From: an uncultured Serinicoccus sp.
Lineage (GTDB): Bacteria > Actinomycetota > Actinomycetes > Actinomycetales > Dermatophilaceae
Length of the DNA stretch: 64,000 nt
Direction of reading: 5' to 3'
NCBI RefSeq assembly: GCF_947500995.1
Contig: NZ_CANMUA010000002.1
Span: forward strand, 248,001 to 312,000
The position numbers and the translations under genes were made by a program. A model generated the notes under the pieces. That model was not told the DNA's origin and searched no databases. It saw nothing but the letters and a program-made list of their open reading frames with translations. This document shows positions 1 through 16,955 of this stretch, piece after piece (the stretch's first letter is position 1; every line of letters begins with the position of its first letter).

Positions 1-960
1 AGCAGCCAGGTTCGTGGTGAACGTCGTCAGGAGCACCCGCGGCGTGGGTCGCCGTGTGGCCAGCGCCCGCGCCCGGTGCAGCACGACCACCGTCTTGCCG
101 GTGCCGGCTCCCCCGGTCACCTTCGCCGGTCCCCGGTAGGGCCGGTCGACGAACTGCTGCTGCAGCGGGTGCAGGAAGATTCGCCACGCGGCGAAGTCGC
201 TGTCCTCCACGACCCGGCGGAGCTCCTCGTCGTCCTCGATCCATGCGAACGACAGCCGCCCGGCCGGATGCTGCAGACCGCGCAGCAGTCGCTCCTCGTC
301 GCTGCCGCTGGTGTCCACCTCGGCGTCCAGGCCCAGCTTGCTGCGCACCTCCTCGACCGGTGTCCCGGCGCTGAGGTCGATGAGGGCCATCCCCTGCCAT
401 TCGGCCGGCGCCGCCTCGGCCAGCGTGAGCACGCCCTCTTCGTCGGTGACCGTCATCGCCCTGCCCACGAAGTCCTCGTCCAGTCCGAGCTCGGTGAGCT
501 GCTCGACGGTGAGCCCGTATGCCGGGAGCAGAGCTGGTGAGGTCGGCTCCGGTGCGGCAGCGGGCGGAGCCGCACGCGCAGCCTCTGACGTGGGGACGAC
601 CTCTGCCTCAGCCACCGGTGCGGCCGCTGCCGGCTCAATAGTGCGGATCTCGGCGATCCCGGAGATCGGGTTCAGGCGCAGGGAGGTGCGCTCGGCGATC
701 TTGATGGCCTCGTCGTGCGGCCAGATGCCGTGGAAGACGTAGGTGCTGGTGTCGGCCGTCGTGATCTTGAAGAGCACCGCCCGGTAGCCCTGGTCGACCC
801 GCCCGGTGCGCACCCGCTCGTCGGCGGCGTTGACGATGGGCTCGATGTGCAGACCGGGTCGGGTGTCGTCCTCCGAGAGTTTCTCGAGGAAGGCGTAGGC
901 CTTCTTCTTCATGACCGGCTCCAGCGGCCGCTCCTGCTTGGCCATGACGATGGTGGGCAT
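1..960 (-). CDS. UvrD-like helicase with RelE-like N-terminus (3' end outside window)
   Basis: Partial gene; 320 codons are visible, starting at ATG 960 and running off the left edge. The first ~90 residues look like a RelE/ParE-type toxin fold (a Lys-rich helix, then a stretch ending in the residues VFHGIW). After a Pro/Ala-rich linker, residues 281-295 carry a Walker A motif, GGAGTGKT, with Lys289, followed by residues LLTTFT typical of UvrD/Rep superfamily I helicases. Met6 is an alternative start. The start overlaps the stop of the upstream helicase gene (TGATG), so it is the last visible gene of the DISARM-like operon. Inference: an ATP-driven DNA translocase of the defence system. Whether the RelE-like part is an active RNase cannot be judged, and the helicase motifs beyond Walker A lie outside the window. 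Confidence 0.75.
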   Translation of the reverse strand, partial: MPTIVMAKQERPLEPVMKKKAYAFLEKLSEDDTRPGLHIEPIVNAADERVRTGRVDQGYRAVLFKITTADTSTYVFHGIWPHDEAIKIAERTSLRLNPISGIAEIRTIEPAAAAPVAEAEVVPTSEAARAAPPAAAPEPTSPALLPAYGLTVEQLTELGLDEDFVGRAMTVTDEEGVLTLAEAAPAEWQGMALIDLSAGTPVEEVRSKLGLDAEVDTSGSDEERLLRGLQHPAGRLSFAWIEDDEELRRVVEDSDFAAWRIFLHPLQQQFVDRPYRGPAKVTGGAGTGKTVVVLHRARALATRRPTPRVLLTTFTTNLAA

Positions 961-3900
961 CAGCGTCCTTCCGTAGCGGTCAGGGCCGCAGCGATGAGCT
1001 CGGGGTCGGGGGCGAGGACCGTCCATGCGTCGGCGCGCAGGTCGGCCTCCATCTGCGGGTCGGGCTCCAGCAGCACGACGACGCGCTGGTCGGTCCACAC
1101 CAGGTCGGCGGGCAGCCCGCCAGCGAGCTCGACGCCGATCTCTGGCACCGGCACCCGCAGTGCCGCCAGTCGCGTCGCCAGGGCCTTCTCCTGGGAGGTG
1201 AGCTGTTGACCCTCCAGCGCCGCCCACGGCCCGGTGAGCTCCCCCTCGGCGGCTCCGGACCGGGTCGGGGCGGGCTCGCCCTCGAGCTTCTCCACGGCGG
1301 TGCGGGCGGTCACCGCCACATCGGGCAGCGCCGAGGTCACCGCGTTGCCGATGCGCAGCCACTCCTGCCACGACTCCTTGTGGGTGGGGCTGTCCACCGC
1401 TGTGTCACGGTCGTCGAGCATCACGACCGTCTCCACGCCCGTGCCGAGGCGGCTCAGGACGACGAGATGGTCCCGTCGCCAGAGAAGCCCGCCGGCGGCC
1501 CCCTCCACCTCGACACCGTCGAGCAGTGCCGCCGCGGCCTCCGCCAGGGGCCGGTCGGCGGGCAGTCTCAGGGGCTCGGAGTCGGGTGCGAGGACCAGGC
1601 CGAGTGCCCGGCCGAGAGCCGTGCGCGGATCGTTGTCATAGGGCCGCTGCAGCCGACCGAGCAGCATGGACAACGGACCGCCCCGGACCTCGTCGACGGC
1701 GCCCTGGCCGATCCCCGCCCCGACGCCGCCAGCCGGTCGGGCGAGCAGCTCGGCCATCACGTCCTGACGCAGCCAGTCCGGCCCCGGGGTCGACCCCTCG
1801 ACGGGCTGGAGGTCGGCATGTGTCACGGACAGCACCTCGATCCCGTTGTCCCGCAGCGTCGCACGCTTGGCGGCATCGTCCTCGATCCGGTTGTGGGCCG
1901 GGCTCGCGTGGTAGGTCCAGCCGTCGGCGAAGATGGCGACGGGCGCGACATTGGGGTCGTCGGTGCGCAGGACGAAGTCGGGCTTGCACCCGTGCATCAG
2001 GACCTGCGGCGACAGACGCCACACGCGGTCCTGCCCGAGGCCCGTGATCGTGAGCTCGTTGCCGGTGGGCCCCGGCTTCTCCTTGACGGTGGCCCCCGCC
2101 GCGGCGAGCCGCTCGGCGAGGACCTTCCGGAAGAGCAGCTCGAGCACGGACTCGGTGTTGGTCGTGCCCACCGGCCCGTCCTCCACCGTCCAGCGCATGG
2201 CGTCTGTGTCGAGGTCGCGCCAGGTCTCGTCCTCCGCCAGGCCGAGCACTCCCCGCAGATGCCGTTCTGCCGACACGCGGGACAAGGAGTCGGCTCCTCT
2301 GCCCCGAGAATGGGGCAGGAGGCAGCGGTAGCAGGACAGCCGTCCCTCGTCGCGGCAGGGACACTCGGCGAGCACGGCATACGCTTTGACCAGCAGCCGC
2401 CAGACCCGCTCCGGCGAGGCGAGGTCGGCGAGGTATCCGGTGCCACCCGGGACGAGGTCGTGCAGCAGCAGCGCCTCGCGCACCTCGGCCGGCGCGCCAC
2501 CGGGTACGGGTGCGGGGACCGTCTCGACCTGCAGGTGGTCCGGCGCGCCGCCGATCTCTTCGCGCAGTCCCAGCAACAGGGAGGCGGCGAGGCTCGGGAC
2601 GGCGAAGGCGTCCCCGAGGGTCGCCGAGACCGGGAGGGTGACGACCACACCCTGGGTGCGGAGCTCGCGGGTGAGGGCGACCGTGCGGGTGTCCTCGGTG
2701 TTCGACCTGCGGTAGCGGCACCACGGCCGGTGCTCGTCCCGGCTGTTATGGTCGGCGGTGGTGTCGAGCTTGCCGCACCCGGCGCACACCCGGAACAGCG
2801 AGGTGGCGACGGGCACCCCGGCCACCTGGCTGTTGACGACCGCTCCTCTCGACCGCGTGCCGACGTTGACCCACCGCAGGTCCACACGGCGGTGGTGCGC
2901 CACCCCGAAGTCGCCTCCGGCGACCTTCCACTGCCGCGCGATCCAGGACGGGTCGAGGTCCGCGGCCGCGACCACCGAGAAGCTCGTCCGGGTCCGTTCG
3001 TCGCGCTGGTCGTCGATGAGGTCACGGTCGCGCCGCACCTCGGAGTAGACGTGGGTGAGCCGGACGGCGTCGAAACGCTGGCTGGTGTCGGCCAGCTGCG
3101 CGCTGCCGCAGCGCGGGCACACGCTCGGGCCGGCGACGGCCTGGGCGTCGACCGCGTATCCGCAGTGTGCGCACCAGACCCACGACCGGACGTGGGCACC
3201 GGCCTGACCCAGGTCGAGGCCGTCGATGCGCATCGCCAGGCCGCGCGTGTAGAACGTCGCCCCGGGGGCGAGCTCACGCAAGGCCTGCGCAGAGGCGCGC
3301 TGCACCGTCTCGCCCTCCGACTCGTACTGCCCCGTCTCCGGGTCGACCCACGTCACCCGCGCCTCGAGGGTGACGATGTCGTCCAGGAGGGTGTAGTTGG
3401 GCAGGATGCCGCGCTCCTCGAGGGCGCTCACCCAGTGCTGGTTGCGCAGCTGGCGTAGATCCCTGCGGGTCAAGCGTTCCGCAGCGACCGCAGTGCGGTA
3501 GTCGCGCGTGTCGTCGTCGGAGGCGGCCGGGCCCTCGGCCGCCGCCCGCAGCCCCGGCAGCGCGTCCTCGATCTCGGCGCGGCGTCGCTCCAGCCCCTCC
3601 TCGGCGCTGGCCCACTCCTGGCTGGCACGGTGCACCAGGGCGGCCAGCGACTCTCCCTCAGCACCGGTCGCCTCGGGGTCAGGGCTGGCCCACGCGCGGA
3701 GTGCCTCGACCACGTCGGGGTCCAGCGTGTCGAAGGAGCCGAGAAAGGTGTCGAGGTAGTGGTCGGACCGTTCCTCCGCCTCGGCGATGACGTCGCCGAG
3801 GAACGTCCCTGGGGCCGACGAGCGCAGCGCATCGGCGGCACGACGCGGCATGCGCCGGTCGCCTGCACGAGCGATGGCGTCCACGATCGAGGCGAGGTAC

Positions 3901-6900
3901 TGCCGGCGCAGGATCTCCTCGGCATCGAGGTAGGTGGCCGGTGGGCGCACCTGCCCGTTGATGACCGACAGCGGGTTGCCGAGGCGAGGCAGCTGGTCAC
4001 CGCGTCCCGTGACGAACGCCAGGTTGAGGGCGTTCCCGGTCAGGCGACCCGCGCGTCCGACCCGCTGGAGATACTTCGCGACGGAGTCCGGCAGCGAGGC
4101 GAGCATCACCGTCGACAGGTCACCGATGTCGATCCCCATCTCCAGGGTAGGGGTGGCGACGAGCACGTTGGGCGCGTCCGGCGTCGGCCGCGACGCCTTG
4201 AAGCCCTCCTCGATCTCCCGCCGCTCGTCGTCCTCTAGCAGGCCCGTGTGCTCACGGGCGACGACCCGGCGCATGTCGACCGAGGCGTAGAGCCGCCGGT
4301 AGAAGTTGTCGTCCCGGGCCGTGGCCCGCAGCCTGCCGGTGCAGCGCACGACCGTGCACGGGGCGCCGTCCAGCTGACCGACCACCTCCGGCGAGGCCGG
4401 CACGTGGTCGCGGCAGAGATCGCAGACCAGGAGGGTCCGCCCCGCCGCGAAGTCCCCCTCTCCCGCGGCCTCGATCACGACGTTCCCCGGGGCGATGCCG
4501 TATGCCGTGCCCCTGCTCTGCGTCTCCGTCGTCGTGAGCACGTCCTGCGCCGCCAGGGCGGCCAGCAGCCGCTCCGCGAGCTTCGCACCGTGCTGCGGGT
4601 TGACCCCGAGACACTTGGCCGCCCACCGGGCATACCAGCTCTGCGGCGAGCGCACCGGGTCCAGGAGCAGCTCCTGCTTGTCCGGCAACGACGGACCGAC
4701 CCGCGGGAATGCGGGCGCGGAGCGTCCCCGGGGAAACGCGGGCATACCGCCCTTCGGGCGCCCGCCCCAGATGCGGTAGCGGCGCCCGTCCTCCTGGACG
4801 TACTTACGCAGCCAGTCGTGGTCGATGCCCCCTCTGTGGCGGATGTGCTCGAGCGTGCCCCGCACCCACGCGGTCAGGTCCCCCTCCCCCGTCTCGGCGA
4901 CCGGAAGCAGCTCCTGCTCGTCCTGGCCGAGGACGTCGCGGGCGATCGCAAGCAGGCGGGTCGCTGGGCCGGCGGCGACCGAGACGACGATCGAACCAGT
5001 CGCCTCCAGCGTTCGGCCGAAGGTCGACTGCAGGCCGACCTCGAGGGAGGCGTCGAGCAACAGCCTCTTCTTGACCCGGTCGCGGTCCCTGCCTGGCACA
5101 TCCTTGAGAGTGCCCGCGGACCAGAATCGCGCGAACGGCTCCAGCAACAGACAGTCCGGCGGCACCAGCCGGTATCGGCGGAACGGGTCGTCGCCGGCCT
5201 CGGCCAGCACTATGTCGACCAGGCTCTCCAGCGTCGTCGGCGCCGAGCCGACCGCGGCCCGCAGCGAGGCCCGCAGGGTCATCGAGTGGGAGCGGGCCTG
5301 CACGAAACCGGCACGGTGGGCGGCGTCCTGGACCGAGTCGGTGAAGACGAGCGACTTCTTCTCCCCGGCGTCCAGGGCGGGGTTGCCGAAGAGGACCGAC
5401 AAGGTCACCGAGAGCATCGTCGCGATCGCGCTGCCGAGGAAGCGGATGCCGTCGGCCTGCTGGCACGAGGGGCAGTCGTCGGCGCGTGCGCGCTCGTCGG
5501 CGTCCTTGCCGGTGCGGGTGAGCACGGGCAGCACCCGCCCGGCTCGCATCTCGGGGTCGTCCTCGTCCGGACGACGGTCGAGCAGCCGGCGTCCGGTGAC
5601 TGAGAGCCAGCGCAACCCTTCGACGGTCCCTTCGGCGCCCGTCGCCTCGGCCACTCGTTCGTCCTCGGCGGGCGCATGCAGGAGCGCGCGGAAGCGCCCC
5701 TCGCCGGCCATCCGGTCCCGTCGGATGTTCGTGTCCTCGGCAGTCAGGTCCTCGCCCACGGCTGCCAGCGTGACGCCCCACCCGGAGCGACCGCAGTGCC
5801 GGCAGTAGACGGCGGGGAAGGTCCGGCCGACGCGGTCGTCGTCTGAGCCCACCCACGCGCCGTCGTCGCTCCAGTGGTAGGCGGGCACGGCCGAGGCCAC
5901 GCGGTCGATGCGGGTGAGCTCGCGCACCCAAAAGTTGAGCTCGACCCCGAGGGCGTCGCGACCGGACACCGCCCGCACGTGGCTGAGGGCGGCCACGACG
6001 CCTTCGACCGCGCGCACCCGCGTGGCGTGAAGGCGTGAGTCAGGGTCGGGACGAAAGATCGCGTCGACCAGGGTGTCGTAGCCCGCCGCCTCCGAGGCGG
6101 CCTCGACCAGGGCGCGGACGTCAGCGTGGCGGCGCACCAGCGTCAGGGGCTCCGCCTCGTGCACATCACCGTCGTGGAGCGCCGCCAGCACCTGTGCGGT
6201 CAGGGCGGCAGGGTCCTCCTCGAGCTCGTCGACGACGCGGACCAGCTGCTCAAGCTCCGGCTCGGAGAGCTGGTCCAGCCTCCGAGCCGGAGGGGTCACG
6301 TCCGCAGACCCCTTCTCAGGCGCTGACCCCCACTCGTCGACCGTCAGACGGCTCTCCGTGACGACCGCGTCCTCATCCAACTGCTCCCCGAACACGGTGC
6401 GGGCGAACGAGAGCATCACGGCCGGGTCACCCTCGTCACCCAGCGTGGCCGAGGTCGCCACGGGCGTCAGCCGGCCCAGTGGTCGCGCCCGGTCGGCGTC
6501 GGTCAGGTCAGGGTGGTCATCGGGCCACTGGCTCTTCAGCGCGATGCCGAGCCGCCGGAGCAGTATGGCGACGTCCGTGCCCTGGGCACCGTCGTAGGTG
6601 TGGAACTCGTCGAGCACGAGGTAGGTCAGCGACAGCGCGCTCTGCTCCCACAGCGACCGGTCCTCGGCACGCAGCAGCAGCTGGTCGAGCATCTTGTAGT
6701 TGGTGAGCAGGATGTCGGGGGCGCTGTCCCGGATGACGGCACGGTCGGTGATGAGCCCTGCTTGCGAGACGGTGGTGCGCGGCCCTGCTTGGTTGCCGGT
6801 GTAGACCGCGGCGGTGACCGACGACAGCGCCGGGTCGGTGGTGAGCAGCTCGGTCAGCCGCTTCGCCTGGTCGTCGGCGAGCGCGTTCATCGGGTAGAGG

Positions 6901-7322
6901 ATGATCGCCTTGGTGCCGCTCACCCCGTCCCGCTTGGAGCGCAGCACGTGGTCGAGGATCGGGTGCAGGAACGCCTCGGTCTTGCCCGAGCCCGTGCCGG
7001 TCGTGACCAGCGTCGGTAACGGCCGCTGCCCGGGCCCCGTCCGCCCCAGGGAGGACAACCTCGCGTAGGCCTGGGCCTGGTGCCGGTAGGGAGCGAACGG
7101 CGGACGCCACTCGAGGTGCTGCTCCCACCCCTCCTCGGCCTGCCGGAACGGCAGGCGGAGCCGGAGGTACGGCCCCTTGAAGAGACCGTCCTGCGGGTCC
7201 TCGAGGAACTCCTGCAGCGCGCGACGCGGCTCGGCGTCGGCGAGGGCGAAGGTCGTCGTCAGGTAGTTGACCAGGCCGTCAGCCAGCTCGCGGGCCTGCA
7301 GGGTGGGGAGCAGCTCGCTCAT
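960..7322 (-). CDS. DEAD/DEAH helicase with DUF1998 and nuclease-like C-terminus (DrmA/DrmB-like fusion)
   Basis: A 2120-residue protein. Residues ~75-330 hold a superfamily II helicase core: Walker A GTGSGKTE (109-116, Lys114), the motif MNALADDQ, and DEFH (238-241). The C-terminal helicase half carries TPTLEMGIDIGD and QRVGRAGR. Cys pairs (CRHC, CPSC, CDLC, CAHC/CPRC) suggest zinc sites. A DUF1998-type block (VPGGTGYL, then Cys1654, Cys1656, Cys1664, Cys1667) resembles MrfA/YprA helicases and DrmB. Residues ~1735-1825 look like a Vsr/DUF559-type nuclease fold: KPDFVL (Asp1782) and ADGWTYH (Asp1800, His1805). Residues ~2030-2120 may be a second, degenerate copy. It overlaps the methylase stop by 4 bp (ATGA). 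In DISARM, DrmA and DrmB are separate proteins; here the equivalents seem fused. Role in defence is inferred. Confidence 0.85.
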   Translation of the reverse strand: MSELLPTLQARELADGLVNYLTTTFALADAEPRRALQEFLEDPQDGLFKGPYLRLRLPFRQAEEGWEQHLEWRPPFAPYRHQAQAYARLSSLGRTGPGQRPLPTLVTTGTGSGKTEAFLHPILDHVLRSKRDGVSGTKAIILYPMNALADDQAKRLTELLTTDPALSSVTAAVYTGNQAGPRTTVSQAGLITDRAVIRDSAPDILLTNYKMLDQLLLRAEDRSLWEQSALSLTYLVLDEFHTYDGAQGTDVAILLRRLGIALKSQWPDDHPDLTDADRARPLGRLTPVATSATLGDEGDPAVMLSFARTVFGEQLDEDAVVTESRLTVDEWGSAPEKGSADVTPPARRLDQLSEPELEQLVRVVDELEEDPAALTAQVLAALHDGDVHEAEPLTLVRRHADVRALVEAASEAAGYDTLVDAIFRPDPDSRLHATRVRAVEGVVAALSHVRAVSGRDALGVELNFWVRELTRIDRVASAVPAYHWSDDGAWVGSDDDRVGRTFPAVYCRHCGRSGWGVTLAAVGEDLTAEDTNIRRDRMAGEGRFRALLHAPAEDERVAEATGAEGTVEGLRWLSVTGRRLLDRRPDEDDPEMRAGRVLPVLTRTGKDADERARADDCPSCQQADGIRFLGSAIATMLSVTLSVLFGNPALDAGEKKSLVFTDSVQDAAHRAGFVQARSHSMTLRASLRAAVGSAPTTLESLVDIVLAEAGDDPFRRYRLVPPDCLLLEPFARFWSAGTLKDVPGRDRDRVKKRLLLDASLEVGLQSTFGRTLEATGSIVVSVAAGPATRLLAIARDVLGQDEQELLPVAETGEGDLTAWVRGTLEHIRHRGGIDHDWLRKYVQEDGRRYRIWGGRPKGGMPAFPRGRSAPAFPRVGPSLPDKQELLLDPVRSPQSWYARWAAKCLGVNPQHGAKLAERLLAALAAQDVLTTTETQSRGTAYGIAPGNVVIEAAGEGDFAAGRTLLVCDLCRDHVPASPEVVGQLDGAPCTVVRCTGRLRATARDDNFYRRLYASVDMRRVVAREHTGLLEDDERREIEEGFKASRPTPDAPNVLVATPTLEMGIDIGDLSTVMLASLPDSVAKYLQRVGRAGRLTGNALNLAFVTGRGDQLPRLGNPLSVINGQVRPPATYLDAEEILRRQYLASIVDAIARAGDRRMPRRAADALRSSAPGTFLGDVIAEAEERSDHYLDTFLGSFDTLDPDVVEALRAWASPDPEATGAEGESLAALVHRASQEWASAEEGLERRRAEIEDALPGLRAAAEGPAASDDDTRDYRTAVAAERLTRRDLRQLRNQHWVSALEERGILPNYTLLDDIVTLEARVTWVDPETGQYESEGETVQRASAQALRELAPGATFYTRGLAMRIDGLDLGQAGAHVRSWVWCAHCGYAVDAQAVAGPSVCPRCGSAQLADTSQRFDAVRLTHVYSEVRRDRDLIDDQRDERTRTSFSVVAAADLDPSWIARQWKVAGGDFGVAHHRRVDLRWVNVGTRSRGAVVNSQVAGVPVATSLFRVCAGCGKLDTTADHNSRDEHRPWCRYRRSNTEDTRTVALTRELRTQGVVVTLPVSATLGDAFAVPSLAASLLLGLREEIGGAPDHLQVETVPAPVPGGAPAEVREALLLHDLVPGGTGYLADLASPERVWRLLVKAYAVLAECPCRDEGRLSCYRCLLPHSRGRGADSLSRVSAERHLRGVLGLAEDETWRDLDTDAMRWTVEDGPVGTTNTESVLELLFRKVLAERLAAAGATVKEKPGPTGNELTITGLGQDRVWRLSPQVLMHGCKPDFVLRTDDPNVAPVAIFADGWTYHASPAHNRIEDDAAKRATLRDNGIEVLSVTHADLQPVEGSTPGPDWLRQDVMAELLARPAGGVGAGIGQGAVDEVRGGPLSMLLGRLQRPYDNDPRTALGRALGLVLAPDSEPLRLPADRPLAEAAAALLDGVEVEGAAGGLLWRRDHLVVLSRLGTGVETVVMLDDRDTAVDSPTHKESWQEWLRIGNAVTSALPDVAVTARTAVEKLEGEPAPTRSGAAEGELTGPWAALEGQQLTSQEKALATRLAALRVPVPEIGVELAGGLPADLVWTDQRVVVLLEPDPQMEADLRADAWTVLAPDPELIAAALTATEGR

Positions 7323-10300
7323 GCCGACCCGCCAGCCGCGGACAAGCGACGCTCGAACTCGGCGTATGCCGCGCGCATGTCAGCCTCGCGGTCTAGACTC
7401 CCGAAGGGCAGCTCGTAGGTGTACTCGACGCCGCTGCCCGGGTGCACCGCGGTGCGGTCCGTCACGGGCAAGTCGTCCCCCCATCGGCGCCATGAAGTCA
7501 AGACCGACCCTGGGACCAGCCTTCCCTTCGAGTCGAAAACGTGCTTCCTACGGTCAGCCCCGACGAGCACCCCGAAATGCGACCTGTAAACCGTGCACAG
7601 ATCCTCGATCCCGATTCCGACCATTAACGCAATGAGGGCATCGATCTCAACTAGGGCGTCGCGCCGGTCCCGCGCTATTCTGAGACTTACCTGCGGGGAC
7701 CATTGCGGAGTGACCTCTGACTGCCTATGCCTCACAATGGCGCGATCCAACAAGTACGCGTCGCTCCACCCAGTGCACCAGAGCTCAGCATATGCATCGG
7801 TAAGGCAATTCAATTGCAGCACTCGCAGGAGAAGCTGGTCGATTAGTGGGTGGTCCTCATCGACCATCGGCAGGCGCCCGAACGTGGACCCCGAGATGGT
7901 CGACCTAGGGATACTACGGATGAGAAAATCCGCCACCAGCGAAGCCGCAAGCCCCGCGGCGGAGATAAGCGACCGGGGATCTGTCGATCCTGGAACCGCG
8001 GCGCTTATAATCGTGTGCGTATGCCCCGCCTCGGCCGGGATCAGCGCCGCCATAAGAGTTCTTTCACCGACATTGGCAGCCGTCATCGACCGCCACGCAA
8101 GGCGGGGAACAGAACGCACCGGTATCGATGCCTCCGCCGTAGGCCAGGAACCGTATTTCGCATCGTACAAGGGAGTGTCCCAAGCAGGTTTGAATTCAGT
8201 GACTGGAACGTCTCGCGGCCCTAGCGCCTCAAGGTCGGCCTCCGTCCAATCTTGCTGATGCTTCAAGGTTGGGTTGGGAGAGGCGGCCAAAGGTGTCGAC
8301 ACCTGAATATGCGAACCTTGAAGAATAGCTTGAGCCCAGGAATCGACGGCCCCCCACTCGGAGACAAAGACACCCCGTTTACGGTCGATGGACTGATCCC
8401 AGCCCCTCGAATAATGGAACCCCACGTCCCTCACTAGACGATTGCGAGAGGCTGCCTGGAAAACTCGGGCCTGTGCTGTGTTTACGGCATAGACCATCGG
8501 GGCGGACTGCCATGACCCCTCATACCCGGAAGTACGCCCCCAAGTCTCCAGCACGATGTTAGTCACGCGCTGAATGCGTGCCGCGTGCGGGCGCAGGTCC
8601 CACCTGCCTTCCTCGTCACGAACGCCTGGCTCTAGGCCACTCCCGTCATGTTGCAGCGAGCGCAAAAGGGTATCTGGGTGGTACAAGGTGACAGCATGCT
8701 CGAAATCCACCTCTCCCCGCTGTGCGTACACATGGATGCCGAACTGCTTGTTGTCTTTTATGTCGAATAGCAATAGGGCGTTCACGAAATGCCAGTGCCT
8801 CCGGAGATGGCGATATGCCGCCGCCCGCAGGACCTGCGCCTTATCATCATTGAAGTGCGTCTCAGGATGAATCAGGGCAGAAACACCCTGAACTGATGCG
8901 TGCCTCCACACCTGAACCATAAAGGCCCGGTACAGATCTGGTTGCCCTGACAAGAGTGGGTAAGTGTCGCTTGCCGCTAACATTTCGGCCAAGGCGAAGG
9001 TGTCCCCTGTGGCGAGTACTACGAGGTCTCGGACCCCGCTGACGTGGAGAGCAACGCCCTTCATATCGGCCTTCTCGGCTTCCGAAGGCTTTTGCGCCAG
9101 CTCCCACCAGGGGTCGCCCTCGGCTAGGAGACCCTCGACGTTTGATCTGGGCCGCACCCACGGCGGGTTCCCGACCTGCAGGTCGAACCCGCCCTGGGCG
9201 AAGACCGTCGCGAAGTCGAGCTCCCAGTGGAAGAAACCCTGCTGCTGAGCGACTCGTTCGCAGACAGCGAGCCACGGATGACGCTCGAGCACCTCGGCCA
9301 CGCGTACAGCTCCGCTGTAGATGCGGTCCTGCTCCTCGGCCTCACCGAGCTGGTCCCAGTCGGTCAGGTCCTGGAAGGTGTCCATCCACCCACGCTTGCT
9401 GTCACGAGTGTCCCGGCCGAGCAGGAGCGTCAGAGCGTCGATCCACTCGTCGAAGGACGGCGGATCGATCTCGGTCTCGGTGAGGGGCCAGAACCACAGT
9501 GCGCCCCAGGCATCCATGACGCGTCGCAGTCGTCGGTAGGCGCCGTCCTGGTCGGCCAGTGACACCTCGATCTGCTCGCGGGTGACGGCGTGCGTCTCCG
9601 GCGTCTCCTCACGCCCCCAGAGCTTCAGACGGCGGCTGGACTCCTGCTCGGCGATCCGCAGGCGCCGGAGGCTGATCTGCCAGAGCTGCTCGGCTCGCTG
9701 CGTCAGGTCCAGTATCTGCTTGACCTGCGTCGTACTAGGCTTCCGTCGTACCGAGGAGCGCCAGGTCTTGAGTGCTCGGACCTCGTCCTCGGCAAGGTCG
9801 CGGACAGACCTCGGCGCCTCGACGGCCGACCCCCACCCCCGGGCGGGCAGGAGGAAGTGGTGGACCGCGGCGGTGACGGCATTCCCTATCCCGCCGTCCT
9901 CCATCTCCTTCGCGAGGTCGCGCAGGGGGACATCCCGGGGGGTCGAGGTCAGCCATGCCTTGTTCCGGACGTCTGCTGCCGGGTAGACCGCGTGGCGGGC
10001 GCCGACGAGCGAGTTGCCGCGGCGGAGGCGCAGTCCGAACCACGGGGCCTGCAGCCCCTCGACCATGGTGTCCAGCCAGAGAGACACCTCGGCCAGCTCC
10101 ACGGCGGTGGCATTGAGGTCTACGCCGTAGACCTGGTGGAGGGCGATGTGGGCCTTCACCCGCTGCAGCTGGCGCGGGTAGTCGTCCGGGTCGATACGCC
10201 GGTCGAGCTCTTCCTGACGCCGGGTGAGGTATTCCCGTGCCAGCTGGTCGACCGCCTCCAGGGCGAACGCACCGGAGCCCAGAGCGGGCTCGCAGACGGT

Positions 10301-11959
10301 GAGGTCGAGGATCTCGCCGGCGCTGGTGCGGGTGCCGTCCTGGTCGAGCAGCTCCTCCAGCGCCTGCTGCACCGTGAAACGGGTCAGCACCTCCGGCGTG
10401 TAGTAGGACGCCGACTGCTGGCGCTCCCGACCCGCCAGGCGGAAGACGAAGGAGCCCTTCGGGTGCACCACCGCGCGGGACTCCCCCGTGTCTGGGTCGA
10501 CCACACGCACGAAGTCCTTCTCGGCCAAGTGGTCAGCTCGGTCCACCGGCACGACCCAGGACCCCTTGGAGGCATCGCCGTCCTTGGCCACCTCGTAGAG
10601 GTCGTCGGTGGCGAAGAACCCGGTGTAGGACATCAGGCCCTCGTAGACCGCGCCGAGCTGGTTGATGCCGAGCTCGACGTAGGAGATGAAGCCCCGCTCA
10701 CGCCCCTTGCGCTCCTTGCTCAGAAGCAGATGACGCAGGACGCGCTGCACAGCCTCGTTGCCGAGCCGCACCTCGTCGATGAGCGCCGTGGCCTGCGGTC
10801 GGAAGAGGTCCGCCCGCAACGGGTCGAACCGAAGCCCCACCGCGCCGGCGTGCGCCTGCTCCTCGGGCGGCCGGTGGCCCGTGTCCACGAGCCGCGAAAG
10901 GCGGTGCAGCGACTCGTAGAGGTGGGTGCCCTCACGGGACCGCTGCTGGTGCAGGTCGACCAGGGTCATCTCGCGCAGGCGGTCGAGCCCGTAGCCGGCG
11001 TCATACTCGCTCGCTCCCGTGGGGAGGACGCCCAGCTCGGGCGAGGCCTCGGCATACAGGAGGAAAAGGATGCGGTAGAGGTAGCGCAGGGACTGGACGG
11101 CCAGCGGCTGCGCCTGGTCGGCGGCCAGTGGCGGCAGGCCCTGTGCCCCTCGGCGGGATACGACCTCGTTGGCGATGATCTCGACCGAGCGACGCACGCC
11201 CTCGCGCAGGTCCTCGGAGACACCCACGGTGTGCTGGACCGACTCCTCCAGCACCGAGGACCACCACACGGAGCCGTCGGCGGCCGGACCGAGGGAGTGT
11301 GCCTCAAGGCACGTCAGGGCGCGGTCGATCTCACCACCTCGCTTGACGTCGTTGCGTTCGGCCACCAGCTGCAGGTCGATCGCCAGGTAACGGCCCTCGG
11401 GCCATCGCTCCTGCTCCGCGATGACGCACCAGCGACCGGCGAGCACCAGCGCGAACGTCGGCGCGTCCTCGCTGACGAACAGGGTAGACAGCTGACGTGC
11501 CACGGACGTGACCATGGTGCCGTCCTCGCCCTCCACCGGCTTGAGCAGGGAGTCGGCGTCCTTGGCCAGCACATCCTCGACGGCGCCAGCCGGTTTCGCG
11601 AGCACGATGACCAGCGGTGGTGCCCCGGTCAGCCCGGGCGAGGACACCGCGGTGATCGGGCCGTGGGTGTCGAGGGTGAACTCCCCGGTGCGGTAACCGA
11701 GCACGTCCATGAGATCGGCATACAGCGCGCGTGCCTCGTCGTGACCGGTGGCGGCCTCCTCGCTGACCGCGCCGAGGCGGCGCTGCAGGTCGGCGCGTCG
11801 CTCCGTGAAGCGGGAGCGGGCGGTGGGGGTGTCCTGATCGTCCCACGCCTTGCGTCGAGCCACGACCTGAGCGTGGAACGACTCGTTGCGCGCGTCGGTG
11901 GTGAAGTAGTGCTCGCTGATCCAGTCCTCGCCGATGACGAAGGCATCGCTGATGGCCAT
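7319..11959 (-). CDS. Large Eco57I/PglX-type DNA adenine methylase (DrmMI-like)
   Basis: A 1546-residue class I SAM-dependent DNA methylase. The start is ATG 11959, one base after the stop of the drmD-like gene; the reading frame is open further upstream but that part overlaps the helicase gene. SAM-binding motif I is EPALGSGAF (557-565) and the catalytic N6-adenine motif is NPPW (931-934). The N-terminal ~500 residues and the long C-terminal target-recognition region resemble Eco57I-type methylases of BREX (PglX) and class 1 DISARM (DrmMI). The expected role is to modify host DNA so the linked helicases spare it. Just downstream of NPPW the base composition drops for about 1.6 kb (separate entry), suggesting exchange of the specificity region. 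The gene ends in a 4-bp overlap with the next helicase. Confidence 0.85.
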   Translation of the reverse strand: MAISDAFVIGEDWISEHYFTTDARNESFHAQVVARRKAWDDQDTPTARSRFTERRADLQRRLGAVSEEAATGHDEARALYADLMDVLGYRTGEFTLDTHGPITAVSSPGLTGAPPLVIVLAKPAGAVEDVLAKDADSLLKPVEGEDGTMVTSVARQLSTLFVSEDAPTFALVLAGRWCVIAEQERWPEGRYLAIDLQLVAERNDVKRGGEIDRALTCLEAHSLGPAADGSVWWSSVLEESVQHTVGVSEDLREGVRRSVEIIANEVVSRRGAQGLPPLAADQAQPLAVQSLRYLYRILFLLYAEASPELGVLPTGASEYDAGYGLDRLREMTLVDLHQQRSREGTHLYESLHRLSRLVDTGHRPPEEQAHAGAVGLRFDPLRADLFRPQATALIDEVRLGNEAVQRVLRHLLLSKERKGRERGFISYVELGINQLGAVYEGLMSYTGFFATDDLYEVAKDGDASKGSWVVPVDRADHLAEKDFVRVVDPDTGESRAVVHPKGSFVFRLAGRERQQSASYYTPEVLTRFTVQQALEELLDQDGTRTSAGEILDLTVCEPALGSGAFALEAVDQLAREYLTRRQEELDRRIDPDDYPRQLQRVKAHIALHQVYGVDLNATAVELAEVSLWLDTMVEGLQAPWFGLRLRRGNSLVGARHAVYPAADVRNKAWLTSTPRDVPLRDLAKEMEDGGIGNAVTAAVHHFLLPARGWGSAVEAPRSVRDLAEDEVRALKTWRSSVRRKPSTTQVKQILDLTQRAEQLWQISLRRLRIAEQESSRRLKLWGREETPETHAVTREQIEVSLADQDGAYRRLRRVMDAWGALWFWPLTETEIDPPSFDEWIDALTLLLGRDTRDSKRGWMDTFQDLTDWDQLGEAEEQDRIYSGAVRVAEVLERHPWLAVCERVAQQQGFFHWELDFATVFAQGGFDLQVGNPPWVRPRSNVEGLLAEGDPWWELAQKPSEAEKADMKGVALHVSGVRDLVVLATGDTFALAEMLAASDTYPLLSGQPDLYRAFMVQVWRHASVQGVSALIHPETHFNDDKAQVLRAAAYRHLRRHWHFVNALLLFDIKDNKQFGIHVYAQRGEVDFEHAVTLYHPDTLLRSLQHDGSGLEPGVRDEEGRWDLRPHAARIQRVTNIVLETWGRTSGYEGSWQSAPMVYAVNTAQARVFQAASRNRLVRDVGFHYSRGWDQSIDRKRGVFVSEWGAVDSWAQAILQGSHIQVSTPLAASPNPTLKHQQDWTEADLEALGPRDVPVTEFKPAWDTPLYDAKYGSWPTAEASIPVRSVPRLAWRSMTAANVGERTLMAALIPAEAGHTHTIISAAVPGSTDPRSLISAAGLAASLVADFLIRSIPRSTISGSTFGRLPMVDEDHPLIDQLLLRVLQLNCLTDAYAELWCTGWSDAYLLDRAIVRHRQSEVTPQWSPQVSLRIARDRRDALVEIDALIALMVGIGIEDLCTVYRSHFGVLVGADRRKHVFDSKGRLVPGSVLTSWRRWGDDLPVTDRTAVHPGSGVEYTYELPFGSLDREADMRAAYAEFERRLSAAGGSA
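7480..9150 (-). other. AT-richer segment inside the methylase gene (target-recognition region)
   Basis: Within the methylase gene, bases ~7480-9150 are about 50-56% G+C in lines counted by hand (30/60 at 7801-7860, 33/60 at 8641-8700), against ~70% on both sides. Codons such as ATA, AAT, TTA and AGG-type codons appear here but are nearly absent in the neighbours. The reading frame stays open throughout. The segment begins just downstream of the catalytic NPPW motif and covers most of the C-terminal part, where sequence specificity of such enzymes resides. Inference: a horizontally exchanged target-recognition domain. Confidence 0.7.
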
Positions 11960-11960
11960 G

Positions 11961-14822
11961 TCAGCCTTCCTGTACGGGATGGTCGGAGGGCACGACGACG
12001 AGCAGCGGGCGCACCAGCTGCCGGTCGGGGGCACGCTCGGCGGCGAGCCTCTGCTCCTCGGCGACGCCCGTGCGGCGGGTGCGCACCTGCGAGCGCTGGA
12101 TGAGGACGTCGGCCTCCTCGGTCCACGACTGCGCACGGTGCACCCACTCGTCGACGCGGCGGAGGGTCTCGGCCTCGGCGGCAGCCACGACGGTCTTGAG
12201 CTGGTCCCGCGCGCTCTGGACCGCCGTCGGCATCAACCGGTCGAGCTGGTATGCCGCGGCGACCGCGCCGGGGTTGCTGCCCCCACGGCTCACACCGACC
12301 GCGGTCAGCATGGCCTCGGCGCTCTCGTGCACGGTGACGGGGGCGAAGCCGGGACCGCCGCGGGGGAAGTCGACCTGCAGCCAGGTCGACGTGACCGTGT
12401 GGCCCGAGCGGTTCGTCAACGAGCCGAGGAGCAGGACCGCGGGCGCCTCGACTGTCCCCCGGACGGCGAAGACCTGGTTGCGGGCCAGGCTCGCCAGGGC
12501 ACGGTCGCTCACCCAGTCGAGGACGGGGTGCAGCGGTGCGAGGTAGTGCGCCTCGGGCCAGGACGAGTCTGAAGCGTCGCTGAGCGCGCCGGCGAGCAAC
12601 GCCTGCCCCTTGGCCTTCGTGGTCGCGAGCTTGAAGGTGTCGGTGACGCGGCGGTCGCGCAGATAGGACTGAGGCAGCACCTCGAGTCGTCGACGCAGGT
12701 CCGACGGCGGTGCGAGCTCGACGACCTGCTCATGGGTGTGTTCGCGCCAGCTGACGCCTCCGCCCTGCTCCGCCGGCGGCTGCTGGGGCTGGGTGTAGAC
12801 CTCGAGGAGCGCCTCCTTGAGGAAGTCGGAGGGGGCGGCGTACAGGCCCTTCTCGCCCGCCGCGGACCCGGTCGCCGTGGTTGCCTTGCCCCCCAGTGCC
12901 TGGAGCCGGGCGAGGAGGCCGGCGACGTCGTCCCGCTGCGCGACCTCGTCCGGGTTGGCCACCACGTCGTCGAGGTCACGCTGGCCCGCGAGGACCTCGC
13001 GGATGCGGCTCTCCTCCGCCTCCACGTCATACTCGCCCATCAAGCCGGCGACATCCCCGAGCGCGGTGTGGGCCTCGTGCTCCTTCTCCATCAGCCGGGT
13101 GAGCACCCGCAAGTCGCCGGAGAAACGGGGGTGAGTGGGCTCGAGCAGGAGGGTGGTGATCTGCGGGCGGTGGCGCTGACCGTAGCGGTCGATGCGGCCG
13201 TTGCGCTGCTCGAGCCGGATGAGCGACCAGGGGATGTCGTAGTGCACGAGCTCGTGACACTGCAGGTGCAGGTTGACGCCCTCGGAGGCGACGTCTCCAG
13301 TGATGAGGACGCGGATCGGCGAGGTCGTCTGCTTGAAGCTCTCGACGATGCCCTGCTGGTCCTGGTCGGACAGGCCGCCGTGCAGGATGGCCACGGCGTC
13401 GGCGGGGAGTTCGAGGTCGCGGCGGACGCGCTCTGCGAGCCAGTGCAGGGTGGCGATCCGCTCGGCGAAGACGACAACCCGATCGGGGCTGCCGGGGACC
13501 ACACCGACGGACCGGAGGTGGTCCAACAGCGCGGCATACTTGCCGCCCGTCTCGGTGAGGCTGCGCTGGTTAACGTCACGGAGGCGCTGGAGCGCCTCGA
13601 TCTCGGCCGCCTCCGCCGGGTGATCCGCGTCGAGCCGGGCGATGCGCTGGCGGAGGGTCTCCTCCAGGGCAGCCGGGGAGGAGAGGAAGGCCTTGGCGAG
13701 CGTCCACGGGAAGAGCCCGGAGCCCTTGGAGTGCGGGCTTCTCCCGCCGTGGGGGTGCAGCCACGTGTCGGCCAGCTCGTGGGCGACGTCGTCCTCGCCG
13801 GGTGAGGCGGGCACGAGGATGTTCTGCGGCTCGAGGCGCTCGGCCCAGGCGGCACCGACCACGCGGGCGACCTCGGGGCTGTGGCGGTGCCGGCGCAGCA
13901 CCAGGCGCCGCACCTCGTCCTCGACCAGCGACCCGTCGGGACGGACCGCGGTCGGCTCGAGGAGGCGGATGAGCTCGGCGAAGGACTCTGCCTTGCCGTT
14001 GTGCGGGGTCGCGGAGGCGAGGATCAGCGCGTCGGTCTGCGGCGCCAGCGTGGTGGCGAGCTTGTTGTTCTGCGTGGCCGAGTTGGTGATGTTGTGCGAC
14101 TCGTCGATGACGACCGCGTCCCACCGGTGCTTCTTGAGGTGCGCGAGGTAGCGCTCGCTCTTCAGCGTGTCGATGGAGATGATGGCGCGCTTGTAGAGCG
14201 AGAACGGGTTGCGGGTGGCGGGCAGCTGCTGACGCACCCGTTGGATGCCGACCGAGTCGAGGCGCACGAACGGCAGGGCGAACCTGGTCCACATCTCGTG
14301 CTGCATCTGCTCGAGGACGTGCCGGGGCGTGACGATGAGGATGCGCTCGCCGCGGCCGCGTCGGACGAGCTCGGACAGGATCATGCCGATCTCGAGGGTC
14401 TTTCCGAGGCCCACGGCATCGGCGAGCAGGATCCGCGGGCGAAGGTTGGCGGGGTCGAGGGCGCGGCGCACGGCCTCCTGCTGGTAGTCCAGCGGGTCCG
14501 CGAGCGCCTGTGTCGAGACGGTCACCGAGGGGTCGTCCACGGGCAGGGGCGTCTTGCGCAGCGTCGACTCGAGCCAGAGGAGCGAGCGGCGGTAGCCCGG
14601 TGAGTCGTCGCCGACGACCTTGGCCTCGGCAGGGTCGAGCACCTCGATCTCGTCGAGGGCCTCGTAGAACATGGCCGGCGCGTCCTTGACGAGCTCGGTG
14701 AGCCCGCGCACGGAGACGAGGGCCCCGTCGGTGGCTTGCTCGACGTTGGTGACCAGCCACTCCTCGTCACGGACGACGACGACTGAGCCTGGCGCCACTG
14801 CCAGCGTGGACGTGGAAGTCAA
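11961..14822 (-). CDS. drmD: DISARM-type SNF2-like helicase DrmD
   Basis: A 953-residue SNF2-family ATPase. Walker A is DAVGLGKT (135-142), the Walker B box is DESH (240-243), and the C-terminal half has EGVNLHLQCHELVHYD and RNGRIDRYGQ (motif VI). The run from Walker A through the RLDSVGIQRVR segment matches my recollection of DrmD, the signature helicase of class 1 DISARM. The start is TTG 14822, preceded by a GGGGTGGAG ribosome-binding stretch; the next Met is only at residue 51, after conserved sequence. It lies 69 bp after the 687-aa gene and one base before the methylase, so it belongs to the same operon. Expected role: ATP-driven translocation on incoming DNA. The family call is firm; membership of a true DISARM system is inferred. 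Confidence 0.82.
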   Translation of the reverse strand: MTSTSTLAVAPGSVVVVRDEEWLVTNVEQATDGALVSVRGLTELVKDAPAMFYEALDEIEVLDPAEAKVVGDDSPGYRRSLLWLESTLRKTPLPVDDPSVTVSTQALADPLDYQQEAVRRALDPANLRPRILLADAVGLGKTLEIGMILSELVRRGRGERILIVTPRHVLEQMQHEMWTRFALPFVRLDSVGIQRVRQQLPATRNPFSLYKRAIISIDTLKSERYLAHLKKHRWDAVVIDESHNITNSATQNNKLATTLAPQTDALILASATPHNGKAESFAELIRLLEPTAVRPDGSLVEDEVRRLVLRRHRHSPEVARVVGAAWAERLEPQNILVPASPGEDDVAHELADTWLHPHGGRSPHSKGSGLFPWTLAKAFLSSPAALEETLRQRIARLDADHPAEAAEIEALQRLRDVNQRSLTETGGKYAALLDHLRSVGVVPGSPDRVVVFAERIATLHWLAERVRRDLELPADAVAILHGGLSDQDQQGIVESFKQTTSPIRVLITGDVASEGVNLHLQCHELVHYDIPWSLIRLEQRNGRIDRYGQRHRPQITTLLLEPTHPRFSGDLRVLTRLMEKEHEAHTALGDVAGLMGEYDVEAEESRIREVLAGQRDLDDVVANPDEVAQRDDVAGLLARLQALGGKATTATGSAAGEKGLYAAPSDFLKEALLEVYTQPQQPPAEQGGGVSWREHTHEQVVELAPPSDLRRRLEVLPQSYLRDRRVTDTFKLATTKAKGQALLAGALSDASDSSWPEAHYLAPLHPVLDWVSDRALASLARNQVFAVRGTVEAPAVLLLGSLTNRSGHTVTSTWLQVDFPRGGPGFAPVTVHESAEAMLTAVGVSRGGSNPGAVAAAYQLDRLMPTAVQSARDQLKTVVAAAEAETLRRVDEWVHRAQSWTEEADVLIQRSQVRTRRTGVAEEQRLAAERAPDRQLVRPLLVVVPSDHPVQEG

Positions 14823-14891
14823 CGCTCCACCCCTACTTTCTCTACAACTCCGCAGATCCTATCCAGCCACTCCAGCACCGCGGGCTGGGGG

Positions 14892-16955
14892 TCAGTCCAG
14901 CACGCCCGGCGACTCGCCCCAGAGGTAGTGGTCGTCGATGACGTCCCACTGGGGATCGGGAGTGCCCTGCCACCGCCGGACCGCATCGTGGATGGCGAAG
15001 GCGGCCCCGGGGGTCGAGCCCACCAGTCTCCTTGCTTCCGCGGACTCGGCGACGAACCACATACGCCAGCGGGAGGTCGCAACGAGGCCCAGTCCGGACA
15101 GGGCCGGTCGTGTTGAGTCGACGACCGAGAGCCGCCTGCGGATCTCGGACGCGACGGCGTGCAGGCCTCCCACGGGGTCCCCGGCGTGGAAGACGTCCAG
15201 GCCGCTGGAGCCGGCACGGCGCTTCGGGGGGACGAAGCGGCTGGCGCTGCGGTCGATGATCTTGACCTGGTCGACACGGCCGCCTGTCGCGCCGGCCACC
15301 CGTTCGACGAACTCGTCCTTGATCTCCGCCAGGGGGTCACCTTGGCCGAAGTCGTATGGCACGTGAATGAGGAGCACCTTGCCCCTCCGCTCCAGAGAGC
15401 AACCGGGCCAGGCGGAGCCCAGATCGTGCCCCTCGGCGTCCAACCATGGCCCGAGCTCGTCGGTCCACAGGCGACGAAGGCGCTGGGCCACCACAGTGTC
15501 GTGCAGAGGAGCGGCGGCGGGCCGAGCCTGGTCCGACTGGAGGACGGGTTCTTTCGCCGGGACGGGCCGCGGCTCGGGCTCAGCAGGCGGGAGCAGGTCG
15601 CGCCACAGCACCGACGCGTCTGCCATCCGTTCCGAGAGATCGAAGAGGTAACCGGCGAAGACGTCGATGACCCAGCGGCCGTCAATCTCACCGAGCGCGA
15701 CCAGTCGGTCGACGGACGGCCTGACCTGGTCGAGGACCGCGTCGCAGAAGGCCTCCTCCAGGTCGATCGTGCGCGCGGCCGCCGTCCTCCAGCTGTCGCC
15801 CTGGTGGACGACGCCCTCCACACCCACCTTCCGCGAGCGACAGAGGAGGACGAGCTCAGCGACGTCGCTCACGTCATCGAGGTCAAAGACGATCTCCTCG
15901 GTCAGGGCGTCCCGGTCCTTGTCGACCAGGAAGATGCCCAGGAGACTGTCCTCGCGGATGAGGCCCAGCTCGCGCGTGCGTGGATAGACGGCGGCCGCTG
16001 TGACGTCCTCAGCAGGAAAGGACCACCACGGCAGACCGCCATACAGCCCGTGCCATGGCTCCGCAGGATCAGGGGACGCTGGCCGGCCTGAGAGCAACCC
16101 CCGCACCAGTGCGCGCTCCACATAGTCGCCGCGCTCGTGCACCTCCATCCACGCGAACTCCCCCGCCGTCAGCGACTCGACCGCGTAGAGGGGCGCCCGG
16201 AGATGCCAGTGCAGCCGGTCCGAGGGGTCAACACCCTCCCGCTGGGCGCGGCGTTGTGAGGTCTTCAGCAGAGCCAGGTCGTTGACGATGGGGACCAGGT
16301 GACCCGGAGCACCCGGAGTCATGAGTGTCAGCTCCCAGTTGCGCCGCGCGTCGAAGTACGGCCCTTCCGTCAGGCGCTCCAGCTCGGTCTGGACCGAGCG
16401 CGGCGCGCTGCCCAGGATCGACTCGATGACACTCCTGTATCCATGGAGCGGGCGGATCGGCAGTGCTATCAGCGCGTCACGGATCTGTGGCTGGTCTACC
16501 CCGAAGACCTCCTCAAGCAGGTCCCGCGTCCGGGCGTCGTCGTTTGGGCCGCTGCGGAACCGTCGGCTGGCCCAGAGTTCGGTCAGCAGCTCGACGGCCG
16601 CGTGCGGCTGCCACGGGACGGGCGCACGAAGGGAACGGTAGGTCATCCGCTCCTTGACGTTGGCGAGCACAGCCTCGGCGAGGCGCTTGTCCTGTACGAA
16701 GCGAGAGAGCGCCTGGGTGGCCTCTTCATCGCCGCGATCCTGCAGGACGGAGAACACAGCGCCTGCACAGGCCGCGGCTGCGGCGAACTCACGTGGCTCG
16801 AGGTGCGCGGGGATCGCCTCGACGAGCTGCTCGCGAACATCTCCGGCCCACTCGATGGTCTCCGAAACCAGCCCCCGGATCCACTCCTCCCGCTCGCTGG
16901 AGAGCTCCTCCATCTCGTCGCCGAAGTCGTCGTACTCCTCGAGCTCTGCGTCCAA
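14892..16955 (-). CDS. Unrecognised 687-aa protein leading the defence operon
   Basis: A 687-residue soluble protein that I do not recognise. The likely start is TTG 16955 behind an AGGGGGCGG stretch; Met15 is an alternative. The first 20 residues are strongly acidic (Asp/Glu-rich). The middle is alpha-helical-looking with many Trp and Arg residues. Around residue 480 a Pro/Ala/Glu-rich linker precedes a C-terminal domain of ~200 residues that starts near the residues RRLWTDELGPWL and contains VLLIHVPYDFGQGDP. No Walker, nuclease or methylase motif and no membrane segment is visible. It is the first gene of the minus-strand operon, 69 bp before the drmD-like gene, so a role as sensor, loader or specificity factor of that system is possible but unproven. 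Confidence 0.7.
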   Translation of the reverse strand: MDAELEEYDDFGDEMEELSSEREEWIRGLVSETIEWAGDVREQLVEAIPAHLEPREFAAAAACAGAVFSVLQDRGDEEATQALSRFVQDKRLAEAVLANVKERMTYRSLRAPVPWQPHAAVELLTELWASRRFRSGPNDDARTRDLLEEVFGVDQPQIRDALIALPIRPLHGYRSVIESILGSAPRSVQTELERLTEGPYFDARRNWELTLMTPGAPGHLVPIVNDLALLKTSQRRAQREGVDPSDRLHWHLRAPLYAVESLTAGEFAWMEVHERGDYVERALVRGLLSGRPASPDPAEPWHGLYGGLPWWSFPAEDVTAAAVYPRTRELGLIREDSLLGIFLVDKDRDALTEEIVFDLDDVSDVAELVLLCRSRKVGVEGVVHQGDSWRTAAARTIDLEEAFCDAVLDQVRPSVDRLVALGEIDGRWVIDVFAGYLFDLSERMADASVLWRDLLPPAEPEPRPVPAKEPVLQSDQARPAAAPLHDTVVAQRLRRLWTDELGPWLDAEGHDLGSAWPGCSLERRGKVLLIHVPYDFGQGDPLAEIKDEFVERVAGATGGRVDQVKIIDRSASRFVPPKRRAGSSGLDVFHAGDPVGGLHAVASEIRRRLSVVDSTRPALSGLGLVATSRWRMWFVAESAEARRLVGSTPGAAFAIHDAVRRWQGTPDPQWDVIDDHYLWGESPGVLD

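Follow-up and report, generated by a model that had tools for sequence, protein, structure and literature searches.

The window analysed here is the whole stretch of 64,000 nucleotides at positions 248,001–312,000 of contig NZ_CANMUA010000002.1 from an uncultured Serinicoccus sp. (G000:C2:248001-312000), and the part of the same contig to its left is called L003. The minus-strand genes at window 960-14822, together with about 1.3 kb leftward, are very probably an ARMADA Type II anti-phage operon, armA-armB-armC-armD, and a 687-aa gene, a DUF6994 gene and a 550-aa gene beside it would be cargo of a defence island. By sequence comparison, the operon is an actinobacterial copy of an already described system, a distant but clear homologue of the tested one. 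According to the consulted sections of the preprint by Bell and others in 2025 (PMC12458937), the ARMADA Type II set consists, in this order, of a BrxHII-like helicase, a PglX-like methylase, a YprA helicase with fused DUF1998 and a RelE-GajB protein. The predicted features of the locus are as follows (window coordinates).

11961..14822, (-): ArmA, SNF2/RapA, BrxHII-/DrmD-like helicase, 953 aa; SNF2-rel_dom and Helicase_C (Pfam), PADLOC DrmD 308 bits
7319..11959, (-): ArmB, PglX/YeeA-like adenine methylase of Eco57I type, 1546 aa; PADLOC PDLC03611 1407 bits
960..7322, (-): ArmC, 2120 aa, helicase of the YprA family to which DUF1998/MZB is fused, with a likely nuclease region at the C-terminus; DEAD, Helicase_C, MZB
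963..2225, (-): C-terminal 421 aa of ArmC, likely PD-(D/E)xK/Vsr-like nuclease domain with further domains after it; motif and model
1..960, on to G000:C2:246729, (-): N-terminal part of ArmD, putative RelE/ParE-like domain, then UvrD/GajB-like helicase; UvrD, UvrD_C, GajB
14892..16955, (-): 687-aa orphan gene upstream of ArmA; family match not found
17168..17728, (-): DUF6994 gene, coordinates being those of the Pfam hit; DUF6994 229 bits

Gene arrangement

Four large minus-strand genes stand in a row with junctions of +1, -4 and -1 bp, according to the calling of open reading frames (ORFs) and the refined starts. The raw ORFs were 953 aa at 11961-14822(-), 1605 aa at 7319-12136(-) and 2120 aa at 960-7322(-). 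The last ORF of the window enters from 1371(-) and runs past the left edge, and its longer version has 880 aa. Starts were refined by comparison with relatives, which placed the methylase start at 11959 (1546 aa) and the start of the UvrD protein at 960 (743 aa). The last gene was completed by L003 and covers G000:C2:246729-248960 (L003:14729-16960, window 960 to about -1271). Two further genes lie close to this row on the same strand. By ORF calling, the 687-aa gene ends 69 bp upstream of the ArmA gene, and the 550-aa gene (L003:13070-14722) begins 6 bp downstream of the ArmD gene. Codon-position G+C is gene-like for all five genes of the operon region and for the sixth, the 550-aa gene.

The original prediction, made from the letters of the window, had described the minus-strand genes as joined by gaps of 69, 1, -4 and -1 bp, and the same gaps are obtained with the refined starts. 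The protein families that it had named were found as an SNF2 protein (DrmD/BrxH-like), an Eco57I-type methylase, a DEAD helicase with MZB/DUF1998 and a UvrD/GajB-like protein; its RelE part is seen weakly. The helicase and DUF1998 functions lie in one 2120-aa protein, as had been proposed, since DEAD, Helicase_C and MZB are all matched in it, MZB at residues 1579-1668 (Pfam). The suggested PADLOC check, made with a library from 2023 (the ARMADA preprint is from 2025), gave as best profiles DrmD for ArmA, PDLC03611 for ArmB, DruE3 for ArmC, and a GajB-type model and a NERD+UvrD model for ArmD.

Comparison with the tested Escherichia coli system

In E. coli ATCC 8739, the ARMADA II locus lies at NC_010468 4239557-4255798, with a DruE gene adjoining. 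The families, the order and the strand of the four genes are the same as in the window. The identities to the E. coli proteins are 36.0% over 841 columns for ArmA, 32.5% over 1451 for ArmB, 29.6% over 1947 for ArmC and 32.6% over 733 for ArmD. The window ArmC was compared pairwise with E. coli ArmC, with the DruE encoded in the same E. coli island and with six DrmA-like proteins from other loci; the scores were 621 bits, 119 bits for the best segment, and 43 bits or less, respectively.

In the published study, the mutated residues were ArmA K136 and D236, ArmB G605 and N971, ArmC K110 and D234, and ArmD K266 and D454; six of the eight mutations ended protection, and those of ArmB G605 and ArmD D454 lowered it (PMC12458937). 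All eight positions show the expected letters in the ATCC 8739 proteins. Alignments of 21, 19, 18 and 18 sequences were used for ArmA to ArmD, window and E. coli counted, and the mutated residues are kept (8/8) in the window proteins and in each aligned relative. Window ArmA K141 and D240 correspond to E. coli K136 and D236, and window ArmC K114 and D238 to K110 and D234. In ArmB the SAM motif and NPPW are kept, and in ArmD K426 and D633 (numbering of the 880-aa ORF) stand for K266 and D454.

The operon of E. coli NCTC 12900 gave protection against 13 of 80 phages, each of the four ARMADA genes was required, and the protection was direct and non-abortive, without cell death; the ARMADA of E. 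coli ATCC 8739 was tested by deletion (PMC12458937). As a refutation, the original prediction had named in advance a characterised system that matches in its gene set, and ARMADA Type II is such a system (PMC12458937).

Conservation of the gene order

Among 394 genomes of the class, 38 (own one counted) have a PDLC03611 match at E<=1e-100, as does one of 14 control genomes. From the 37 other genomes with an ArmB hit, 20 loci were picked, 17 above 850 bits and three weaker. One of them (G422, at a contig end) was left out of gene calling, hence 19 gene-called loci. ArmA-B-C-D are adjacent on one strand at 15 of the 20 loci, among them G402 with an interrupted ArmB. The order is kept at one more locus (G561) with extra genes between B and C. 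At G324, G622 and G422 the contig ends within or after B, and G324 has 2.5 kb past B without C. At G403, A and B are not directly followed by C or D, and an ArmC-like match lies about 14 kb further.

A scan of genome_contigs (84,980 species) gave 568 confirmed matches, of which the best 80 are the named loci; these are not a random sample and partly overlap with the 20 loci (for example, L112 is G623 and L114 is G434). All of the best 80 but one, named Planococcus, bear actinobacterial names. Among them, 52 have A-B-C-D in order, 15 have A-B-C, 11 have A-B and two have B alone. Counting only the 70 with room for four genes, the numbers are 51 A-B-C-D, 14 A-B-C and 5 A-B. In many incomplete loci C lies kilobases past B, and D may then be outside the flank. 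Outside this strain, the gene order ArmA-D is therefore seen at 15 of the 20 chosen loci, with G561 interrupted, and at 51 of the 70 named loci with room.

According to tblastn estimates, ArmC starts more than 900 bp past ArmB in 19 of the best 80 loci, and in five further ones a stretch of 2.5 kb or more past ArmB showed no ArmC. Most of the armB-armC gaps hold other genes (L090, L091, L099, L103, L116, L130, L142 and others). One gene family occurs in the gaps of four loci, and its member in L127 is a restriction endonuclease of the GmrSD kind. Insertions seem to recur at the armB-armC junction, and the 5' side of armA looks like another site where foreign genes settle.

The C-terminus of ArmC and the N-terminus of ArmD

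For the 421 C-terminal residues of ArmC, an alignment with 16 relatives (17 sequences) was made. P82 D83, D101 G102, H106, N112, R121 and R125 are invariant, and they make the pattern P-D ... D-G-x-x-x-H ... N, which we take to fit the Vsr-like type. The AlphaFold2 model from this alignment has a mean pLDDT of 85.8. REase_MTES_1575 was matched in 7 of the 17 C-termini, with an E of 4.8e-4 for the window protein, which is below the Pfam cut-off. The C-terminus of ArmC is likely a predicted PD-(D/E)xK/Vsr-like nuclease domain. The N-terminus of ArmD is a 126-aa domain conserved in 17 sequences, and it aligns with the N-terminus of E. coli ArmD.

Several points weigh against the assignment of the operon and its domains. 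In the consulted sections of the preprint, anti-phage activity is reported for E. coli systems and not for an actinobacterium (PMC12458937). The type is assigned from gene content, gene order and pairwise scores and not from a tree of the YprA family, and the top PADLOC profile for ArmC is DruE3 (282 bits). A Foldseek search with the C-terminus of ArmC gave nothing at E<=0.001; the first row is an unrelated fold (E 0.055), and the weak list holds Hjc, EcoRV, PvuRts1I and TnsA mixed with unrelated folds. A nuclease was not found by the PDB profile search of this region, nor was RelE by that of the N-terminal region of ArmD. RelE at ArmD is weak by sequence (ParE_toxin in 2 of 17 N-termini, best E 0.042), and one member of the ArmD family matched NA-iREase3 better (E 0.0017).

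The orphan genes and the nearest relative

The 687-aa protein had been called unrecognised in the original prediction, and it is indeed unmatched in Pfam, PADLOC, NCBIfam, PHROGs and PDB. Nothing was found for it in plasmids or viral_contigs or, with exact 8-residue patterns, in genome_contigs. The sole match in 296 genomes was the protein itself, and in 347 genomes the protein itself and two chance matches were obtained. Relatives were not found by tblastn in the 20 or the best 80 other ARMADA loci. When the 687-aa protein was compared with all frames of the first set of 20 loci, the best phmmer E was 0.15. For the 550-aa protein the outcome was alike: a match was not found in Pfam, PADLOC, NCBIfam and PHROGs, and relatives were not found in the 20 or the best 80 loci; in the 80, whose flanks reach about 10 kb past ArmB, only part of its slot can be seen.

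Some weak matches were rejected. Those of the 687-aa protein in G763, where the ORF reads by eye like a prephenate dehydratase, and in G861, where the ORF runs antisense across part of a trehalose-type gene (by eye), were counted as chance, as was the match of the 550-aa protein in G716, which did not recur at E 1e-3. ARMADA genes were not found by tblastn near these three matches. Three PDB matches of the 550-aa protein, at E 1.4-2.4, are also chance. The AlphaFold2 model of the 687-aa protein from a single sequence was unusable (mean pLDDT 40) and was thus kept out of the fold search. A likeness of its C-terminal part to the DnaA N-domain is unsupported by the Pfam scan, and is not claimed.

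The closest ARMADA found is that of Ornithinimicrobium sp. F0845 (locus L088), whose ArmA-D are 76, 68, 70 and 72% identical to those of the window. The same divergent DUF6361-ZacB-ZacC operon lies upstream, and only about 300 bp separate DUF6361 and ArmA. A relative of the 687-aa protein was not found in the whole genome of this strain, and the sole match of the long DUF6994 ORF in L088 covers residues 1-51, antisense to DUF6361. Between the window and L088, DNA similarity breaks off at both gene starts (window 17922 and 14805); hence a segment of 3.1 kb, which carries the 687-aa gene and DUF6994, was either inserted in the window or lost from L088. The similarity also ends after ArmD. Among the loci, the gene directly upstream of ArmA varies from locus to locus. 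A protein kinase family (F7) was observed directly upstream of ArmA in G403, G502 and G561 and directly downstream of ArmD in G412 and G625; Pkinase was confirmed for the members of G502 and G412.

The original prediction had counted the 687-aa gene as a component of the operon, and this probably does not hold: its relatives are missing from the 20 and the best 80 other loci, and the gene is missing from L088. The absence from the loci, the breaks of similarity and the varying neighbours upstream of ArmA are better explained by cargo of a defence island than by a core part of the system. The 687-aa gene is probably inserted cargo and not a core part. With the DUF6994 gene upstream and the 550-aa gene downstream, it is probably island cargo that the core system does not need.

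Alternative explanations

The 687-aa protein, perhaps with the 550-aa protein, might instead belong to an extended ARMADA as a real lineage-specific part, such as a sensor of phages or an adaptor expressed together with armA-D, placed at a variable 5' slot between the Zac-like operon and armA. The distances of 69 bp and 6 bp on the same strand and the gene-like codon composition of both orphan genes agree with such a part, and in the related Druantia III the DruE partner DruH is reported as a likely sensor (PMC13192584, consulted in part). We regard this explanation as unlikely, given that the loci compared lack orphan relatives (20 and best 80, partly overlapping), that the locus of L088 lacks the 687-aa gene with DNA similarity ending at the gene starts on both sides, and that the upstream neighbours of ArmA vary.

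That the operon is a DISARM system or a new class of DISARM is highly improbable, even though ArmA is a homologue of DrmD and ArmB one of DrmMI (PADLOC 308 and 189 bits). DUF1998 is fused to the helicase, and DrmB and DrmC are not among the PADLOC matches listed for the operon proteins. The NCBIfam scores are 328 bits against a cut-off of 610 for DrmD and 19.7 against 999 for DrmA; these cut-offs alone are weak evidence, because the separate DrmA-like gene that adjoins another ARMADA locus also falls short (372 of 950). The original prediction had noted that a separate set of DrmA, DrmB and DrmC is not seen, and this agrees with these scores and matches. DISARM class 1 was ruled out by gene content, as no separate drmA, drmB and drmC were seen with drmD and drmMI. 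The proposed distinct variant or new relative of DISARM stands insofar as the operon is a DISARM relative with a fused helicase-DUF1998 protein and an added RelE-UvrD protein; the set itself is not new, being that of ARMADA Type II. A system of Druantia type, with ArmC as DruE and the 687-aa protein as its partner, has scarcely any probability in our view. The DruE3 profile is on its side, but with 621 bits ArmC is closer to E. coli ArmC than to E. coli DruE (119 bits), the 687-aa protein matches no PADLOC model, and the two-gene Druantia III has no methylase or SNF2 helicase. DruH is not among the PADLOC matches listed for the operon proteins, the presence of a DruH model in the library being unchecked. 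Druantia type III was ruled out by the direct comparison of ArmC and by the content of four genes instead of two.

Proposed mechanism and meaning

An ARMADA Type II operon in the window may act as follows; the scheme draws on the published E. coli systems and on DISARM, BREX and Druantia, and for the window on genes and motifs only. ArmB would methylate the host DNA as a mark of self. ArmA, an SNF2-type translocase, would act with ArmB on foreign DNA. ArmC, a YprA-family helicase, would load on phage DNA, unwind it and cut it with the likely nuclease domain at its C-terminus. ArmD, which joins a UvrD-like motor to a putative RelE-like domain, would assist and would also be needed. DruE, a relative of ArmC, is reported to load on 3' single-stranded DNA (PMC13192584).

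The operon is homologous to a tested one, and it was struck off the list of candidate new defence systems. What value remains lies in its being an ARMADA II native to an actinobacterium, for which L088, without the 687-aa gene, offers a close natural comparison. Core and cargo are thus separable by experiment. The reading as a new DISARM is not supported.

Neighbouring genes

The divergent Zac-like operon at window 17910-24105(+) consists of a DUF6361 protein, ZacB (549 bits) and ZacC (1095 bits). In L088, L106 and L123 it likewise stands head-to-head with ARMADA, and in L138 it points in the same direction (4 of the best 80 loci), and it lies downstream of ARMADA in G623. ZacB was found in 9 of 394 genomes of the class, own one counted. 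The pairing of Zac and ARMADA may be more frequent than chance. A literature search on the Zac names gave nothing relevant among the matches listed.

Further defence-like genes follow in the window.

24181-24903, (+): EcsC family PDC-S29; defence-like
25756-27741, (-): PbeA-like helicase; defence-like
28297-30783, (+): GajB-like UvrD protein with HEAT_CxxC_PDDEXK match; defence-like
33909-37295, (+): DpdE/ZorD-like SNF2 protein with SWIM; 747 bits to DpdE

To the left of the operon, a helicase at L003:5733-8507(-) matches HmaA with 735 bits, and a 1094-aa ATPase at L003:9375-12659(+) has weak mad3/LmuB matches. Two minus-strand ORFs of 793 aa and 411 aa were judged antisense shadows of this plus-strand gene.

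DrmA-like (F6) and DrmB-like (F5) genes are near ARMADA in 6 of the 19 gene-called loci of the class (G204, G434, G381, G560, G551 and G278), and family F8 joins them in five of the six. Both are also present in 8 of the best 80 loci at E<=1e-20 (L092, L094, L109, L110, L114, L135, L142 and L160). In G434, the one locus scanned, neither gene reaches its NCBIfam cut-off (DrmA 372 bits of 950, DrmB 22 of 240), and the F8 member is a C5-methylase. These DrmA-like/DrmB-like/F8 sets are DISARM-like, perhaps of a divergent class.

Comparison with known systems

Druantia type III has a DruE-like fused YprA helicase in common with the window; the window has a methylase, an SNF2 helicase and a UvrD protein, and no DruH is seen. 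DISARM class 1 shares a related SNF2 helicase (DrmD), a PglX-like methylase (DrmMI) and a YprA-family helicase, whereas in the window DUF1998 is fused, no separate DrmB or DrmC is seen and ArmD is added. The locus of Ornithinimicrobium sp. F0845 shares ArmA-D and the divergent DUF6361-ZacB-ZacC operon upstream, and differs in having no 687-aa gene, no DUF6994 between Zac and ArmA and no 550-aa gene in 1.4 kb past ArmD. The E. coli ATCC 8739 ARMADA II comes from another host phylum with 30-36% identity, and it is adjoined by a DruE gene, whereas the window operon is adjoined by the divergent Zac-like operon, two orphans and DUF6994. The two operons have in common the same families, order and strand, a fused YprA-DUF1998 helicase, in the window with a likely C-terminal nuclease-type region, and an ArmD of the RelE-GajB type, whose RelE part is putative in the window.

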